Of a stretch of 64,000 nt of DNA, positions 4,732-11,560 are shown piece after piece. How positions within the stretch are numbered: position 1 is the stretch's first letter; each line of letters opens with the position of its first letter. The notes under the pieces were generated by a model that ran no database searches, had not been told where the DNA came from, and saw only the letters and a program-made list of their open reading frames with translations. The DNA is from Streptomyces sp. NBC_00536 (GTDB lineage Bacteria; Actinomycetota; Actinomycetes; Streptomycetales; Streptomycetaceae), in the NCBI RefSeq assembly GCF_036346295.1, contig NZ_CP107819.1, forward strand, positions 3,596,001-3,660,000. Reading direction: 5' to 3'. Made by a program: the position numbers and the translations under genes.

Positions 4732-5820
4732 TCAGGGAACCAGCGACAGGGCCCGCCGGGGCTCAGTTGCGGAGTGCTGGCCGCCGCCGTCGACCATAGT
4801 GATGGTCAGCCCGAAAAGCATCTTGTTCATCTCCTCCGAGGTCAGGCCCAGCTCTGCGGCCACGACGGCCGGCTTCACTCCGGTGGACCTCAGCCCGCGG
4901 AAGACCTTGGTCAGGACCTGGGAGGTCTCCCGCTTCTTCATGCCCTCGGGCTCGTCTCTGCGGTAACCCCGCTTGCTGAGCTCTGTGCAAGCGGAACGGT
5001 ATTGCCAGTCGGTGAGCAGTCCGAGATCGTGCATCCGGTAGGTCAGCGCCATCGCGGAGACCTTCCAGATCCTCTTTCCCTTGAGGATCTGGTCGACATG
5101 GGCTCCGGCCGGCATGTGGCCGATCACGCTGGCTGCGGGCATGAGGAAGGCGCTGGCGAAGTCGTTCGCCTGCCGCTCCGCCTCGGGTCCGGAGCACTCC
5201 CGGTCGCTGCCGTGCATGACGAGGTGGCCGAGCTCGTGCGCCGCGTCGAAGCGGCCGCGCTCAACGGACTTCATCGTGTTCAGGAAGACGAAGGGGGTTG
5301 GCCCCCGCCAGAGCGCGAAGGCGTCGACTTCGGCGTACTCCGGCGCGAGGGAGAACACGCGGACACCGTGTGCTTCCAGAAGATGGACCATGTTGGGCGC
5401 CGGCGCGCTGCCCAGGCCCCAGCGGGTGCGGACCATCTCAGCTGCGGTCTCCGGATCGGGCTTCCCCAGGGAGGGGATGTCGGCCGCCGGCAGCCGGAAG
5501 CGCTCGTCGATCCAGTCGTACAGCAGCGCTGCGAGCGTGCCGGCGGCGCGGGCGGCGTCCAGTGTGCGGGCCGAGGTCTTGCTCCGGGCCCTCCACGAGA
5601 TCCCTTCCATCGGGAGTTCGTCGACCTCCGGCCCTTCGAAGAAGAGCTCGGGGAAGTCGAGGGCCTCGGCGAGGCGTCCCACGGTGGTGCGGCGCGGCGT
5701 AGTTCGGCCCGTTTCATAGTTAGACAGGCTCTGCAGGGAGACTCCCGCGAGCTCGGAGAGTTCCGCGAGTGTCAGGCCCCGGCGCTTGCGGGCCAGCGTG
5801 ATACGGGACGGGGTGACCAT
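4732..5820 (-). CDS. XRE helix-turn-helix regulator fused to an ImmA/IrrE (M78) metallopeptidase
   Basis: A 362-aa intracellular regulator-protease. Residues 1-60 form an XRE helix-turn-helix (RRGLTLAELSELAGVSLQSL). Residues about 80-250 form an IrrE/ImmA zinc-peptidase domain with H195-E196-x-x-H199 (AAHELGHLVMH) and a downstream E215 in ERQANDFASAFLMP, so all zinc ligands are present. Proteins of this design bind DNA and cleave a repressor after a signal; they occur in phage and ICE control circuits and as toxin-antitoxin regulators. The C-terminal 110 residues are helical and unassigned. It lies 72 bp downstream of an unknown 218-aa gene on the same strand and is likely co-transcribed. Confidence 0.88.
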   Translation of the reverse strand: MVTPSRITLARKRRGLTLAELSELAGVSLQSLSNYETGRTTPRRTTVGRLAEALDFPELFFEGPEVDELPMEGISWRARSKTSARTLDAARAAGTLAALLYDWIDERFRLPAADIPSLGKPDPETAAEMVRTRWGLGSAPAPNMVHLLEAHGVRVFSLAPEYAEVDAFALWRGPTPFVFLNTMKSVERGRFDAAHELGHLVMHGSDRECSGPEAERQANDFASAFLMPAASVIGHMPAGAHVDQILKGKRIWKVSAMALTYRMHDLGLLTDWQYRSACTELSKRGYRRDEPEGMKKRETSQVLTKVFRGLRSTGVKPAVVAAELGLTSEEMNKMLFGLTITMVDGGGQHSATEPRRALSLVP

Positions 5821-5892
5821 GGTGGGACTGCCTCAGGATCTGGGTGGTGCGGGTGGGGCGGCCAGTATCGCGGCCATCCCACAGGACGGGCC

Positions 5893-6549
5893 TCAGCGAA
5901 ACTCGACGGGGATGTCGATCTCGTCGGGTCCATCTTCGTCAGGTCGTTCGATTCCGTCCATCTTGATGACGGGCAGCGGGATCCGCAGGGCCCACTCCGC
6001 CACGAATCCGCGCTCGACCTGGACGGGCAGCGACAGCTCGCTGTGGATCCGCACCGCATCCTCGATCTCCACCCGGTAGGAGACAAGGAACCAGGTCTTC
6101 AGCGCCCGCGCCTCATCCTCGTCGAGGACTGCCTCATGCGGCCCGACGGGGGTGGGGAAGAGGGCAGGCTGCAAGTTCGCCTCGGCCGCCCGCTCGGTAG
6201 CGGCACCCCGCTTATGGAGGTTGGTGGGATGAAGGGCCTGTATGCCCGTGGCCGAGTCCCCGACCATCGTGGCGATCGCGAGGGTCTTCTGCGGGTTGCA
6301 GACGGTTTCGAGGTGGTCGTGCAAGAGCCGCTTCCAGCCCTCGTGGCGGATGTGCTCCTCCCGAAGGAGACGTACGTGCTCCTGGTAGGCCCGGGTCCCG
6401 GCCGTGTTCGCCGGGTGGTTGGGAGTGGCCGTCCGTCGCGCCGCTTCGCCGGCATACAGCGCCGGGTGCAGGTACTCCCACCTCGTTCCGAGAGCCGCCA
6501 GCTTGGCTCGGATGTCGTTGGGAACGGGGGCGACGAGGGGCATGGCCAT
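5893..6549 (-). CDS. Unknown 218-aa protein upstream of the XRE-ImmA gene
   Basis: Not recognised. The start ATG at 6549 has GGAGG five bases upstream. The protein is soluble, without signal or membrane segments. The first 120 residues are helix-rich with many His, Glu and Arg (REEHIRHEGWKRLLHDHLET). The C-terminal third is beta-rich and ends in an acidic patch (IERPDEDGPDEIDIPVEF). It is the first gene of a two-gene unit with the HTH-metallopeptidase, and two palindromic sites lie in its upstream region. Pairing with ImmA-like proteases suggests it could be the protease substrate, a toxin or an effector; none of these is demonstrated by sequence. Confidence 0.6.
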   Translation of the reverse strand: MAMPLVAPVPNDIRAKLAALGTRWEYLHPALYAGEAARRTATPNHPANTAGTRAYQEHVRLLREEHIRHEGWKRLLHDHLETVCNPQKTLAIATMVGDSATGIQALHPTNLHKRGAATERAAEANLQPALFPTPVGPHEAVLDEDEARALKTWFLVSYRVEIEDAVRIHSELSLPVQVERGFVAEWALRIPLPVIKMDGIERPDEDGPDEIDIPVEFR

Positions 6550-6575
6550 GGAGCCTCCGGTGAGCGACGGAAGAA

Positions 6576-6617
6576 CTTATAAGGAGGCTACCGCAGACGC
6601 GGCGTCAGATTTATAAG
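6576..6617. promoter_or_regulatory. Paired CTTATAAG-type sites upstream of the XRE-ImmA unit
   Basis: CTTATAAG (perfect palindrome, 6576-6583) and TTTATAAG (6610-6617) lie 34 bp apart, 27 and 61 bp before the 218-aa gene start. AT-rich palindromes stand out in this GC-rich DNA. They fit operators for the XRE domain of the downstream gene (autoregulation) or overlapping -10 elements. Function is inferred. Confidence 0.45.
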
Positions 6618-6624
6618 ACCACCA

Positions 6625-7036
6625 TCATCGCCCCATCACTACGCTTGAGTTCGCGGATTCACCCACCTCCGGCAACACTGCATGGCGTCCAACTCGTGGC
6701 AGCTGTGACGTGCTGCGACCGGATTCCACGTACGGATCGGGCTGAACGAGGAGAGTGGGGTGGCCGCGCGCGGTGCGTTCGGTGGCCCAGGCGTAGTCGA
6801 GGGCGGTGGAGTCGTCGTCGATCCAGACGACTGGTGCTCTGCCGAGCCACGCGTCTACGTGGTCGCGCTTCCAGAGATAGCCGTCGGGATGGGTCGTAGT
6901 GATCTGCGGGCGGGGCAGATCTAGGTAGGGGAAGTCCTGCAGCCCCAGGAGCGGCCCGACGATCGTGGTGGCGTTGCGTCAGCTCGTGCACCAGACCGGG
7001 GCGCCGAGGCCGCTGTGCCAGCTCGACCAAGTCGCC
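6625..7036 (-). pseudogene. HAD-like protein pseudogene (C-terminal part)
   Basis: The minus strand below 6979 reads RNATTIVGPLLGLQDFPYLD, then KRDHVDAWLGRAPVVWIDDD and HPTLLVQPDPYV, ending in TGA at 6625. This is the pattern of a HAD-domain family common in Streptomyces. Just upstream the frame reads VWCTS-stop-RNATT, where the family has VWxTSW; the stop (TGA, 6979-6981) is one base away from TGG. A frameshift near 7005 separates this from the preceding DLVELAQ in another frame. The N-terminal catalytic DxD part is gone. Nonsense, frameshift and truncation together make this a clear pseudogene. Confidence 0.72.
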
Positions 7037-7228
7037 GTCGGCGATCTCGTGACCCGCGTGAACGAGCTCACCACTCAGAACCAGCGGCTCTCTGACGGCC
7101 TCGCTGCCGCCAAGCACGCGACGGCCGAGCTCGAAGCACAACTCACCGAGGCTCAGGACGACCTAGCCGCGGCCCGCGGCAGTCTGCGGAAAATGATCCG
7201 CGCCGAGAACCACGGCGGGGCAACATGA
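7034..7228 (+). pseudogene. TnpC/DUF6262-like coiled-coil remnant of a Tn554-type element
   Basis: The plus-strand frame ending in TGA at 7226-7228 reads VTRVNELTTQNQRLSDGLAA then AELEAQLTEAQDDLAAARGS and LRKMIRAEN. This heptad-rich tail followed by RKMIRxEN is characteristic of DUF6262 proteins, the third gene of Tn554-like transposons (two tyrosine recombinases plus TnpC). Only the C-terminal half remains and neither recombinase is next to it. Its left end runs antisense into the HAD pseudogene. The frame opens upstream to 6965, but that part is not family-like. Confidence 0.55.
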
Positions 7229-7295
7229 TGTCTGAAAGAAGGAACCATCGAACTTTCCGGCCGCCGCGTGAGTCGGGGCAGAGGGAGAACACTGA

Positions 7296-8771
7296 GTGAG
7301 CACTCCGCGCAAAACACCCCCCACACTGTCACCACTTACGCACGAGTGGAACACGGCGCGGAACACAGCGAAAGGGTGGCCGCAGTTCCTGGAAGCTGTG
7401 CATGTTGACGGACTTCGGGGATGGAACGGTGAGACCGTCGAATTCCGATTCCCGGTCGTTGCGGTTGCTGGCGAAAACGGGGCCGGAAAGAGCACTATTC
7501 TCAAAGTCGCAGCTGCCGCCTATGTGGTAAACCAAGAGGACGGATTGACTTTCTACCCGGATGACTTCTTTCCTAATACGCCATGGGAAATCGTCGAAGG
7601 CGTTGCCTTGGGTTACCAGATCAGGCGCGGAAATTCCGTTAGCAATCTGACCTTGAGGAAGCCTACCAAGCGATGGCGTGGAATGCCCGACAGATTTCGG
7701 CGCCCCGTATTCTTTCTCGACATCAGCCGCACGCAGCCCATCAACACTCTAGTCGGCTATGGAAAGATCGCTAAGGAGCTGAACTTCCCCGGCGATATCA
7801 CGCTATTCAGTGAGTCTGACCGGGCGCTGCTGTCCCGGATCATGAACAAGTCGTACACTGCGAGCGGCATGGCGAAGTACGAAAACAAACAGGTCGGAGT
7901 CCTGACCACTGACGCGGGAGAGTACTCCAATTTTCATCAAGGTGCTGGCGAGGACGCCACCACAGACCTGGTGGCATTGCTCCGGTCCGCCCCCGTGCAG
8001 TCTCTCGTCATCATTGATGAGGTAGAGGCCTCTCTCCATCCGAGGGCCCAGCGACGCCTGATGACAGAACTGTTCGCCATCTCAAAGGAAAGGAAGATTC
8101 AATTCATCCTTTCCACCCACTCGGCCACCATTCTTGAACAACTGCCGACTGAGGCTCGCGTCTACATTCAGGCTCAGCGCAAGGGGCCACGAAACATTAT
8201 CTATGGAGTGACTCCGGAGTTCGCCATGTCACTCATGGATGATGTTGATCATCCAGAGCTCACACTATATTGCGAGGACGAGCAGGCGCAGACCCTGGTT
8301 GACGCATTGATCTCCCAGGAGATGCCTGAAATCAGGAATCGAGTGGCAGTGATACCAGTGGGCGCTGCTTCCACAGTGAAAACCCTCGGGGAGCTAGCAT
8401 CGAAAGATAAGCTCCCCAATCGGTCCCTCGGAATTCTCGATGGAGATCAGGATGAAAGTGAAGGCTGCATTCTTCTCCCAGGTGCACAAGCGCCCGAGAA
8501 AGAAGTCTTTAGCGCCCTTGATGAAACGGCATGGGAGAAGGTTGCTAACCGTCTCGATGTACGAGTTGCTGATCTGCTCGAAGCCGTCGACGACGCACGC
8601 CAGATCGTCAATCACCATGCGTGGGCCCGCAAGGTGGCAGAACGGCTTGGCCCGCGAGTTCGCGTCGGACGGGTCTGGGAAGACATCGCCTCGGTGTGGT
8701 CCAAGGAGGTAGTCGATCCAGCCAAGCGAACAGCGTTCGTCGAGGCGATCCTCCAGCATCTGATCGAGTGA
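7296..8771 (+). CDS. OLD-like AAA/ABC-type ATPase with C-terminal TOPRIM-like region
   Basis: A 491-aa cytosolic ATPase of the OLD/AAA_21 type. Walker A is GENGAGKS (59-66), an ABC-like signature lies in SNFHQGAGED (211-220), Walker B is SLVIIDE (236-242) and the switch histidine is H275 in ILSTHS. After the ATPase, a TOPRIM-like part has E327 in LYCEDEQ and D382-x-D384 in LDGDQD, the expected metal ligands of OLD nucleases. Proteins of this design act in anti-phage systems (OLD, Gabija GajA, PARIS-like). GTG 7296 follows GAGGGAGAAC. Base composition is visibly less GC-rich than its neighbours, with many A/T third positions, indicating recent acquisition. It is followed by a HEPN-motif gene. 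Confidence 0.82.
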   Translation: MSTPRKTPPTLSPLTHEWNTARNTAKGWPQFLEAVHVDGLRGWNGETVEFRFPVVAVAGENGAGKSTILKVAAAAYVVNQEDGLTFYPDDFFPNTPWEIVEGVALGYQIRRGNSVSNLTLRKPTKRWRGMPDRFRRPVFFLDISRTQPINTLVGYGKIAKELNFPGDITLFSESDRALLSRIMNKSYTASGMAKYENKQVGVLTTDAGEYSNFHQGAGEDATTDLVALLRSAPVQSLVIIDEVEASLHPRAQRRLMTELFAISKERKIQFILSTHSATILEQLPTEARVYIQAQRKGPRNIIYGVTPEFAMSLMDDVDHPELTLYCEDEQAQTLVDALISQEMPEIRNRVAVIPVGAASTVKTLGELASKDKLPNRSLGILDGDQDESEGCILLPGAQAPEKEVFSALDETAWEKVANRLDVRVADLLEAVDDARQIVNHHAWARKVAERLGPRVRVGRVWEDIASVWSKEVVDPAKRTAFVEAILQHLIE

Positions 8772-8777
8772 TTGGGT

Positions 8778-8809
8778 GCACCCCCGAGCGTGATCGCGTT
8801 CGGGCGTGC
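8778..8809 (+). terminator. Imperfect hairpin after the OLD-like gene
   Basis: GCACCCCCGAGCG pairs with CGCGTTCGGGCGTGC around a TGAT loop, with one mismatch and a two-base bulge. There is no T-run. It lies between the ATPase stop and the ATG of the HEPN gene and could attenuate read-through. Confidence 0.35.
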
Positions 8810-8913
8810 CCCCAGTCAAGTCCTGGCCCGTCATCCTGCCAGCCGATCTGGCAGCGCTGCTCGGAATCCTGATCACCGCGGCGGAGTGCTGCCTTTTCCA
8901 ACCGGAGGCAGTC

Positions 8914-9657
8914 ATGACCGAACTCGACGTCATACTCAACGAACTCGCCCAAGGGCTGCGCCCGATGTCACAGGGCATCGAATGGTTCGAAGCGCTGAGT
9001 CCGGAGGGGCAGTGGGGCACCCTGCACTGTGATCCGGCCCGGAAGCACTCTTCCGGCTGGTGGGATCTCTGGGAACTCGACACCCTCGGCAGGCTTCTGG
9101 ACGGACTCGTACCCGCGATGGCAGATCCCGTGAGCGGAGAAGCACTGCGACTGCAGATCAGCTATGCGATCACGGCCATCCGCGACCAGGGTTTCGTGGA
9201 GCAGCGGGTGATGATCGGGGCTGCCGGACTGGAGCACGCTATGTGGCAGAGGCTCTGCCTTCGCGGCGTCCTCACTCGCGCGGAGTACAAGAACACCCGC
9301 TTGTGGCCTGCCCACGAAAAGTTGCGGAAGGCCCTCCGGGAGATCAACGTCGAGGTCTCCATAGACCGCGGCCGTCTGCCAGCGATGGCTTCCTTCGTCG
9401 ATGAGATGCGTCGGCGTACTGGGCAGGCCTGGGATGGCCCCGCCGTGGTGACCAAGGTCCGCAACCACATGGTTCACCCCGAAGAGGATCAGAAGGAGCT
9501 CTACCGGATTCCGGGCCTCGTCACGGAAGTGTGGCTGCTTGCCAGGCACTACCTGTCACTGCTGGTTCTTGAGTCGCTGGGCTATCGAGGAACGCATCAG
9601 AACCTGTCGAGAATGCACGGCATCGCAGGTGAGGTCGAGGACACTCCGTGGCCATGA
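8914..9657 (+). CDS. HEPN-motif protein with a DUF5958-like N terminus
   Basis: A 247-aa protein. Residues 183-188 read RNHMVH, an R-N-x3-H (Rx4H) motif typical of HEPN RNase domains, set in a helical C-terminal region (TKVRNHMVHPEED then a Leu-rich helix HYLSLLVLESL). The first ~40 residues (ILNELAQGLRPMSQGIEWFE) closely follow the start of DUF5958 proteins, after which the match stops at PARKHSSGWW. This suggests an in-frame join between a DUF5958 gene start and the 3' part of a longer HEPN gene. ATG 8914 has an ideal GGAGG five bases upstream; the frame stays open back to GTG 8806. Next to an OLD-like ATPase, an RNase effector role is attractive but unproven. Confidence 0.6.
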   Translation: MTELDVILNELAQGLRPMSQGIEWFEALSPEGQWGTLHCDPARKHSSGWWDLWELDTLGRLLDGLVPAMADPVSGEALRLQISYAITAIRDQGFVEQRVMIGAAGLEHAMWQRLCLRGVLTRAEYKNTRLWPAHEKLRKALREINVEVSIDRGRLPAMASFVDEMRRRTGQAWDGPAVVTKVRNHMVHPEEDQKELYRIPGLVTEVWLLARHYLSLLVLESLGYRGTHQNLSRMHGIAGEVEDTPWP

Positions 9658-10180
9658 GTCGGGCCTATGCCGGCCTGTTCCCGAGACGCTCTACGAACGC
9701 GGCGAGGCGGTCTGGCGGGACCGTGTAGGAGATGCGGACATGGTGTGGGGCAGCGAAGTCCGCAGCAGAGGTAATAGTGCGGTCGGTCGAGGACCCACTG
9801 AGGGTTCTCCAACCTGAAGTCGCAGGTCACGGGGGCTTGCGTGGGACGGCAGTGGACACCTCGGGCGGCTCCCGGGCGTGATCGCGAGAAGGTGATCGTC
9901 TGTCTGCTGGAAACCTCGGCGTTCGTCAGTACGAGCAGCGCGCGTAGGGGGATCGTCGCATGGCGGGCGTTCATTCAGAGCTTGGTGAGGATCCGCCAGT
10001 CCTTCAGGGCGGCGAAGCCGTGCTCGCTCGCTGCTCGTTCGTGGCCGACAAGCCTGTTCGACTCCTTCTGTGCGGCGGTCAGACCTCACCTCAGCCGTGG
10101 GGAAAGTCGCCTGACGAAGATTCGAACATATGGCAGATTGACGGGTGCATGACCTGATCTTCATCCTCGAAGGAGCAGTT
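9658..10180. other. Gene-free stretch of about 520 bp containing IS debris
   Basis: Apart from the transposase tail at 9905-10083 (entered separately), no coding region is seen. The minus strand near 9663-9760 has a short readable piece (HHVRISYTVPPDRLAAFVER then stop) that could be the end of some enzyme, but it is too short to name. The frame 9691-10344 on the minus strand is in the wrong phase for the transposase homology. Confidence 0.5.
9905..10083 (-). pseudogene. C-terminal fragment of a DDE (IS5-like) transposase
   Basis: The minus strand reads LTAAQKESNRLVGHERAASE then HGFAALKDWRILTKL, a TGA stop, and MNARHATIPLRALLVLTNAE. This is the typical end of actinomycete IS5-like transposases: the conserved catalytic Glu segment (E-H-G-F-A-x-L-K-x-W-R-I-L-x-K) followed by a leucine-rich tail. 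The in-frame stop and the missing N-terminal two thirds show that it is dead. Confidence 0.7.
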
Positions 10181-11560
10181 TTGCCCCGCAAGTTGACCAC
10201 AGCCGCCATGACGGCGGCCATGATCGCCGCCACTCTCGCCGTTGCCCCGTTTGCCGGGGCTTCGTCATCGCCGAAGAACACTCCGGTGATTGCCGCGTCC
10301 CCGACCTCCTCCACTCTCGCCACAGTGGACAAGGCGACCCTCAAGCGGCAGGCCCAGTTGGATGCCCTCGCCGATCAGATCACTGGCACCAGTGGCACGG
10401 AGGCTGAACACGTCGGTGGTTACGGCGGAGTTGTGGTGCACCCGAAGACGGGTGAGCTTTCCGTGTATTGGAAGGGGGATGTTCCGCAGAACGTCAAGGA
10501 TGTCCAGGCGAGTGCCGCCGCCAAGGGTCTGAAGGTGACCGTCTCCCCGGCCGCGTACTCTGCACAGGAGTTGGAGGCGGCCCGCGACAGCTTGAAGAAG
10601 GCCGTCAAGGGCAAGGACGCGGCCACGGAGCCGGTCGCAGCGTGGAATTCCATCGCGGTCCTTCCTGACGGCAGCGGCCTGTCTGTCACCTACAACTCGC
10701 CGACGTCGCAGCCCGCTCCATCCGCGAAGTCCGCGAAGTCCGCGAAGAGTACGACTCATCCGATCTCGGCCCAGCGGATCACCAGCACGTCTGCGGTGGA
10801 TGTTGCCGCCCGTGCGCAGACGCTGGCCGGTGTTCCGGTGCAGGCAGCATCCGCCCCGGAGATGGAGGACACCAGCACTCGGGTCTCCGACGTCTCACCG
10901 TTCTGGGCCGGTGCGCAGTTGACCAACCCTGACGGCTCCTGGTGCTCCTCCGGCTTCGGCGGTACGTATACGGGCACGGGCAGCAAGATCATCCTGACCG
11001 CGTCACACTGCGCGACATCCGGGGAGTTCACCACGCCCCAGGGTGTCAAGGAGGGATACGCTGGGATCTCCAACACCGACTATGACACGACGTTCGTGAA
11101 CGTGATCGGCGAGTCTGGGAAGCAGTTCTACGACGGGGCGTGGAACGACTCGACCGGGTATCACAAGCACGTCGCGAGCTGGGGTCTCAACAAGGCCGGC
11201 GACTATGTGTGCACCTCGGGTTCCATGTCCGGCATCCATTGCAACATCCTGGTGCAGTACGCCGGGATAACAATGAACATCGGCGGCATCGACCGGCAGA
11301 ACGTCGTCAAGGCGATACGGACCGACACCAGCATGGCGGTGGCAGGGGGTGACAGCGGTGGCCCGGTTGTCACCAGCCCGGACGGCACCTACAGCAACGA
11401 CAACATGCAGGCCCGAGGCCTGATCAGCGCCGGCTGGGGCAGCACCGTAACGTGCCCGGCTGGAAGTGTCGCAAACAGTGGGACCACATGCTACGAGGGT
11501 GTCGCCTTCATCGGCATGTCTGCCATTGTGAACAAGATGGGATTCAACCTCAACACCTGA
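10181..11560 (+). CDS. Secreted trypsin-like (S1) serine protease
   Basis: A 459-aa exported protease. TTG 10181 is chosen because GAAGGAG lies five bases upstream; it gives a classical signal peptide (LPRKLTTAAMTAAMIAATLA...GASS). A propeptide-like region of about 200 residues follows, ending in a Lys/Ser-rich linker (three SAK repeats). The protease domain carries the catalytic His in LTASHCAT and Ser in AGGDSGGPV; the Asp is probably in NTDYDTTF. Cysteines are spaced for disulfides (WCSSGFGG...SHCAT; YVCTSGSMSGIHC). The layout resembles alpha-lytic or streptogrisin-like enzymes. The lipoprotein gene 17 bp downstream is probably co-transcribed, and an I36 inhibitor gene lies nearby. Confidence 0.88.
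   Translation: MPRKLTTAAMTAAMIAATLAVAPFAGASSSPKNTPVIAASPTSSTLATVDKATLKRQAQLDALADQITGTSGTEAEHVGGYGGVVVHPKTGELSVYWKGDVPQNVKDVQASAAAKGLKVTVSPAAYSAQELEAARDSLKKAVKGKDAATEPVAAWNSIAVLPDGSGLSVTYNSPTSQPAPSAKSAKSAKSTTHPISAQRITSTSAVDVAARAQTLAGVPVQAASAPEMEDTSTRVSDVSPFWAGAQLTNPDGSWCSSGFGGTYTGTGSKIILTASHCATSGEFTTPQGVKEGYAGISNTDYDTTFVNVIGESGKQFYDGAWNDSTGYHKHVASWGLNKAGDYVCTSGSMSGIHCNILVQYAGITMNIGGIDRQNVVKAIRTDTSMAVAGGDSGGPVVTSPDGTYSNDNMQARGLISAGWGSTVTCPAGSVANSGTTCYEGVAFIGMSAIVNKMGFNLNT

Follow-up and report, generated by a model that had tools for sequence, protein, structure and literature searches.

The 64,000-nucleotide stretch of Streptomyces sp. NBC_00536 analysed here (contig NZ_CP107819.1, positions 3,596,001 to 3,660,000; hereafter the window) carries a gene for an ATP-binding cassette (ABC) ATPase with a TOPRIM-like tail, followed 142 bp downstream on the same strand by an open reading frame (ORF) with a HEPN ribonuclease (RNase) motif, and a sequence-only reading had taken the two for a candidate defence pair outside the described systems. 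By profile, the ATPase is a member of the HEC-04/IbfA family, which is already described, and the second ORF is, as judged from its relatives, what remains of another, full-length HEPN gene, namely its rear half, and most likely came to lie beside the ATPase by chance. The features concerned are as follows, in window coordinates:

7296-8771, plus strand: HEC-04-like ABC-ATPase/TOPRIM gene, 491 amino acids (aa), GTG start with GGGAG ahead
7470-7496, plus strand: Walker A motif GENGAGKST, with K65 kept in 38/38 relatives and 16/16 of a wider set
8001-8021, plus strand: Walker B motif SLVIIDE, with D241 and E242 both kept in 38/38 relatives
8118-8120, plus strand: switch histidine H275 (STHS), kept in 38/38 relatives and 16/16 of the wider set
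8253-8495, plus strand: TOPRIM-like region, with codons for E327 at 8274-8276, D382 at 8439-8441 and D384 at 8445-8447
8914-9009, plus strand: first 32 or so codons of a DUF5958 gene, preceded by that gene's GGAGG, the junction placed to within a few codons
9010-9657, plus strand: C-terminal half (about 214 aa) of a YopA-type HEPN protein, in frame with the DUF5958 start
9460-9477, plus strand: HEPN motif R-N-x3-H (RNHMVH), read from the sequence

The best PADLOC profile for the ATPase was HEC-04 (Hma-embedded candidate; PDLC04149) at 180.7 bits and E 1e-53, aligning residues 22-441 with positions 17-436 of a 494-position model. The same model scored lower, at 141.3 bits, on L068, a 518-aa E. 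coli IncI plasmid protein taken as IbfA from its length, plasmid type and adjacent ProQ/FinO gene. In a close alignment of 38 proteins (the window protein included, the others 96-46% identical to it) K65, D241, E242, H275, E327 and D382 are invariant (38/38), while a wider alignment of 16, including the window ATPase and the putative IbfA, retains K65, H275, E327, D382 and D384 throughout (16/16), with E242 present in 15 of 16 (L057 being gapped there) and D or E at position 241. The Walker A, Walker B, switch-histidine, E327 and D382/D384 motifs pointed out in the sequence-only reading are borne out by the sequence and both alignments, both ORFs lie at the positions it gave, and its view of the first gene as an OLD-type ATPase from a defence family, ending in a TOPRIM-like part, agrees with the HEC-04 profile and the motifs.

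Predicted structure is consistent with this assignment for the first gene. The AlphaFold model (mean predicted local distance difference test score, pLDDT, 82.6) places E327 and D382/D384 immediately after predicted strands 322-326 and 377-381, a strand order that fits a TOPRIM domain, and structure comparison found an ABC/SMC-type head fold, with Thermus scotoductus OLD (6p74) as the top Foldseek match and mostly ABC heads among the matches in BFVD. The HEPN model had no Foldseek match below E 1; the product of the second ORF probably has a HEPN fold. Viral contigs yielded no relatives with the window ATPase as query and one distant relative with query A1, and the contig search with A1 gave at least 8 loci, of which L014-L016 were used.

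The second ORF is a chimera. Its start codon is likelier the ATG at 8914, behind the GGAGG, than the GTG at 8806, and what follows is 69% identical to the DUF5958 protein P0015 over 17% of the query, while the HEPN half is 77% identical to P0002 (362 aa) and 68% to P0003 (412 aa). The DNA match of the HEPN part with a full-length 447-aa gene at L030 begins at 9011, and the window copy sets in at a point corresponding to about residue 233 of those 447, some 230 N-terminal residues being absent. The parent family, here called YopA-type HEPN, combines PF26308 and PF27216 and is annotated as 'YopA family protein' in RefSeq E. coli; the window gene corresponds to the C-terminal half of a member, whereas full-length members reach about 445 aa and the window copy has a DUF5958 start in place of the YopA-central half. 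Such a start was seen in the window copy only (1 of 112 HEPN-family proteins checked). The R-N-x3-H motif noted earlier is indeed present, and its R and H are invariant in 11 relatives, some of them not full length. For the HEPN half and its nearest relative the ratio of nonsynonymous to synonymous substitution rates (dN/dS) is about 0.17, which falls inside the range of the other pairs compared (0.13-0.27; NG86, with dS near saturation) and thus gives no clear sign of decay.

The adjacency of the two genes is not conserved. Carrier counts are lower bounds, 3-8 candidates having been scored per genome in the large searches. Among 345 genomes of the window's taxonomic family the ATPase occurs in at least 3 (E up to 1e-40) and the HEPN family in at least 8 (E up to 1e-10), and among 394 genomes of the class the corresponding figures are at least 1 (ATPase search at E 1e-80) and at least 7; in both sets the window's genome is the only one of the carriers found to hold both genes. 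Within the genus (295 genomes) the ATPase was found in at least 4. The HEPN gene lies beside the ATPase in none of the 7 other close-clade genomes (G901, G1053, G1110, G012, G145, G839 and G699; 96-51% identity), 6 of which yielded no HEPN relative at all. G1110 has two HEPN-family copies, both on contigs other than that of its ATPase, the match to which ends about 120 bp from a contig end, so that the comparison there covers the downstream side. The 95-96% identical copies share window DNA only from 7135 (G1053) or 7274 (G901) to 8868 or 8830, which is the ATPase gene and little more, and stops ahead of the DUF5958 start at 8914. Conversely, HEC-04 was found in 0 of 11 other HEPN-family loci within the fetched flanks (one side only for L038). 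On these sequence comparisons a two-gene ATPase/HEPN pair is not supported: the genomes hold homologues of the ATPase with no HEPN gene beside them, the outcome that the sequence-only reading itself had named as speaking against a pair, and the partner it proposed is a 5'-truncated chimera. The view that the ATPase lies outside described systems likewise gives way, on profile, to HEC-04.

The low guanine-plus-cytosine (GC) content of the ATPase relative to its neighbours was correctly observed: at 0.562 it ranks lowest among 626 stretches of equal length, compared with 0.680 for the upstream RmrA gene, 0.631 for the HEPN part and 0.700 for the window as a whole. At third codon positions (GC3) the gene has 0.63, and its nearer relatives at L028, L048, L049 and L050 have 0.60-0.63, so that low GC appears to travel with the gene among them; two Microbacterium copies have 0.70-0.74.

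Several named systems resemble the ATPase in part. HEC-04 is likewise a single ABC-ATPase/TOPRIM protein (model 494, window 491) with the same catalytic residues, although no Hma genes were recognised among the scanned window neighbours and the island of the window gene adjoins RosmerTA. IbfA (L068) is 25% identical over 408 residues spanning both domains, but it is distant, comes from an enterobacterial plasmid, and its local alignment stops at residue 414 of 491. Class 1 OLD nucleases, which are stand-alone genes, share the ABC head and the E...DxD motif (P2 Old and Thermus scotoductus OLD, 6p74), whereas by sequence their alignment with the window ATPase is limited to the ATPase part. The Retron I-B ATPase-Toprim effector (PDLC02914) is the second-best PADLOC match at E 6.6e-24, its best stretch (window residues 235-388) extending into the TOPRIM region, but the 7 window proteins scanned around the ATPase contain no reverse transcriptase domain. 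Nor do these 7 (4732-11560) include a GajB-type helicase domain, as in Gabija, the direct neighbours being a DUF6262 tail and the HEPN chimera, or a separate AriB-type TOPRIM, as in PARIS, the window motif being in the same chain. PARIS, Gabija, Septu and retrons were rejected as assignments, with profile matches weaker than HEC-04 and no partner genes recognised.

The ATPase is very probably a HEC-04/IbfA-family nuclease that defends against phage on its own and works in an OLD-like manner, with the HEPN ORF a leftover. The family profile, the motifs, the predicted ABC-head fold, the non-conserved adjacency and the chimeric second gene form the observed basis, and the nuclease activity, its trigger and its outcome are proposed by analogy. 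SMC/Rad50-like ABC heads would bind ATP, form a dimer and be licensed by a phage protein or by infection-linked DNA, and the TOPRIM acids E327/D382/D384 would then nick or cut DNA, with the infection aborting as a consequence. The gene itself moves with only short flanks. The cleavage step is deduced from the motifs together with the biochemistry of OLD nucleases. In the available passages of PMC12111858, HEC-04 is described as one ABC-ATPase/TOPRIM chain, HEC-04 and IbfA are reported as active against phage as single genes, and IbfA lowers phage yield and raises early transcription with ATP not depleted; PMC8565338 mentions neither HEC nor TOPRIM. Several points weigh against a nuclease of this family. 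Position 384 is D in 31 of 38 close relatives and E in 7, function is transferred from proteins about 25% identical, and the HEC-04 assignment was judged against the putative-IbfA score and not PADLOC's own cut-offs. The structural matches stop near residue 315, so that the TOPRIM fold is barely covered, hhalign against P2 OLD was confined to the ATPase part, and DNA cleavage by IbfA is not among the results in the passages of PMC12111858 consulted.

The family from which the second ORF derives has its own associations with defence genes. R-N-x3-H-P is found in 103 of 112 family proteins (one has A for N, eight have no match), R and H are also invariant in a wider alignment of 10 members, in which eight distant ones, 19-31% identical to L030, retain both. 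In Nostoc (L071) a type IIG-like methyltransferase flanks the HEPN gene on one side and an SNF2-type helicase (PADLOC best C3a139, then DrmD) on the other, and the locus reads in an operon-like manner as a large methyltransferase, a small ORF, the YopA-type HEPN and a helicase-related gene (L071:304-8571). An operon-like row in Planktothrix (L076:82-8918) comprises a large DNA methyltransferase, a small ORF, the YopA-type HEPN, a sigma-70-annotated gene and an SNF2 protein. The E. coli locus L074:3500-8792 has its YopA-family HEPN after three integrase-type genes and before a helix-turn-helix (HTH)-type gene, HsdM and HsdS; L077, L078 and L079, three more that were read among 27 places across 24 E. 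coli records, are like it with DUF262/GmrSD-type genes in addition, the HsdS of L077 being interrupted by an insertion element. The island lies beside ssb1/uvrA in L077 and L078 and on plasmids in L074 and L079. No restriction system is annotated beside the HEPN gene at L072, L073 and L075. At L037:8314-11665 a GajA-type ATPase/TOPRIM gene (PDLC04168, E 5.5e-148), which belongs to a different ATPase family, lies 367 bp downstream of a full-length YopA-type HEPN gene and on its strand; this is 1 of the 11 HEPN loci, and it favours a pair. Neither the window copy (best E 0.027) nor 7 other members matched a PADLOC model at E 0.001. The copy at L036:8307-9246 (G169) matches in two separate pieces.

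HEPN domains in restriction-modification (R-M) operons are a known theme in the portion of PMC3710099 consulted, in which YopA is not mentioned, and a literature search found no paper joining YopA and HEPN and none on the YopA central domain. These HEPN proteins may be an undescribed family of defence RNases that repeatedly assembles with defence genes directed at DNA (type I, type IIG-like and GmrSD-like restriction, the GajA-type gene of L037, and HEC-04 here), the window copy having first lost its sensor half and then come together with an OLD-type ATPase, but we regard this as unlikely.

The neighbours of the ATPase in other genomes bear on whether it might be an accessory nuclease to R-M genes that has been orphaned in the window. 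Gene lists came from a simple GC3-based caller, which did not call the L029 ATPase, the window RmrA/RmrT or the split L036 HEPN copy. R-M neighbours were read at 3 of 7 close loci and 2 of 11 wider loci: by Pfam, a Bse634I-type endonuclease gene and a C5-methyltransferase adjoin the ATPase at L028, and a C5-methyltransferase, Vsr and an unknown gene lie directly upstream at L046 and L047 (Pfam on L046), with type I R-M genes upstream at L054 and Vsr and a C5-methyltransferase downstream at L056 in the wider set; brxL is about 4 kb away at L059. The types nevertheless vary by locus, other loci have recombinases, metal-resistance genes, unknown genes or a P450-like gene (L029, our own reading), defence genes cluster anyway, and HEC-04 and IbfA are reported to act as single genes in the passages of PMC12111858 cited above. 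An accessory role is judged quite improbable. Two Microbacterium loci (L046:7565-11608 and L047:7848-11892) place the C5-methyltransferase, Vsr, a protein of about 300 aa and the HEC-04-like ATPase in one direction, the L046 copy of the 300-aa protein having no Pfam or PADLOC match. At L048:11608-16710 a 1700-aa protein with a P-loop-like stretch and no Pfam or PADLOC match lies beside a 95% identical ATPase copy.

In the window the ATPase sits in a shuffled mobile island that also holds another defence-type system, RosmerTA:

4732-5820, minus strand: RmrA-like HTH/ImmA-protease antitoxin (PADLOC RmrA PDLC03949, E 1.2e-152; Pfam Peptidase_M78)
5893-6549, minus strand: RmrT-like toxin of the RosmerTA pair (PADLOC RmrT PDLC03935, E 3.9e-53)
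7019-7228, plus strand: 3' tail of a DUF6262 gene, directly before the ATPase, up to 60% identical to plasmid DUF6262 proteins

The transposon debris reported earlier is represented by this DUF6262 tail, DUF6262 corresponding to TnpC of Tn554. The tail matches 16 plasmid records, in 9 of which the gene at that place is annotated DUF6262; in 5 of 6 plasmid regions read it hits the third member of a tyrosine recombinase-tyrosine recombinase-DUF6262 cassette (L063 is without such annotation), and DNA matches to 3 of 5 tested recombinase cassettes begin at 7019. A pseudogene-like fragment common to window 6770-7015 and L030:12654-12901 (82% identical DNA) ends just ahead of the tail. It is very unlikely that the ATPase serves the accompanying transposons in DNA processing and not in defence. 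The tail is directly upstream in the window, part of it precedes the ATPase in G1053 (L048), tyrosine recombinases lie upstream of the ATPase at L055 and downstream at L053, a serine recombinase gene adjoins it at L050, and an rve/Mu_transpos_C transposase is near at L049, in an element that we take to be Tn7-like; but the recombinases are of differing types, a pattern expected of mobile cargo, and none of the 6 DUF6262-match plasmid regions has an adjacent annotated ATPase of this size (L066 has a 175-aa 'AAA family ATPase').

RosmerTA is reported as a type of phage-defence system in the consulted part of PMC10440598. The arrangement of window 4732-8771 recurs at L053:3134-7398, where a RosmerTA pair and a neighbouring HEC-04-type ATPase have matching order and orientation, with RmrA 78%, RmrT 51-53% and the ATPase only 29% identical, and a DNA match over 4901-6121. 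RosmerTA and HEC-04 as one unit was rejected: despite L053 there is no general link among the matches listed, with 1 of 25 listed RmrA plasmid records (of 336) also among 15 listed ATPase records (of 831). L055 has an ImmA/IrrE-type gene, but the gene adjacent to it has no RmrT match.

A two-gene system in which the OLD-like ATPase would detect infection and unleash the adjacent HEPN RNase is hardly credible, for although the two genes lie close together on one strand, the HEPN ORF has its GGAGG, an intact motif and a dN/dS without clear decay, and L037 offers a HEPN gene with a GajA-type gene downstream, the adjacency recurs in 0 of 7 close-clade genomes, only the window's genome among the carriers found has both genes, the ORF lacks its N-terminal part and has a foreign start unlike the 111 other proteins, and the ATPase of L037 is from another family.

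A claimed new system thus becomes a member of HEC-04, and the locus illustrates how island shuffling can mimic a two-gene system by placing a foreign start and half a gene beside a mobile nuclease. The full-length YopA-type HEPN family, found in several restriction loci, is a better lead than the window pair, and, with its presence in cyanobacterial and E. coli restriction loci, it merits separate study. For the ATPase itself, the catalytic residues common to the window protein and IbfA allow a direct test of a poorly understood family in Streptomyces.
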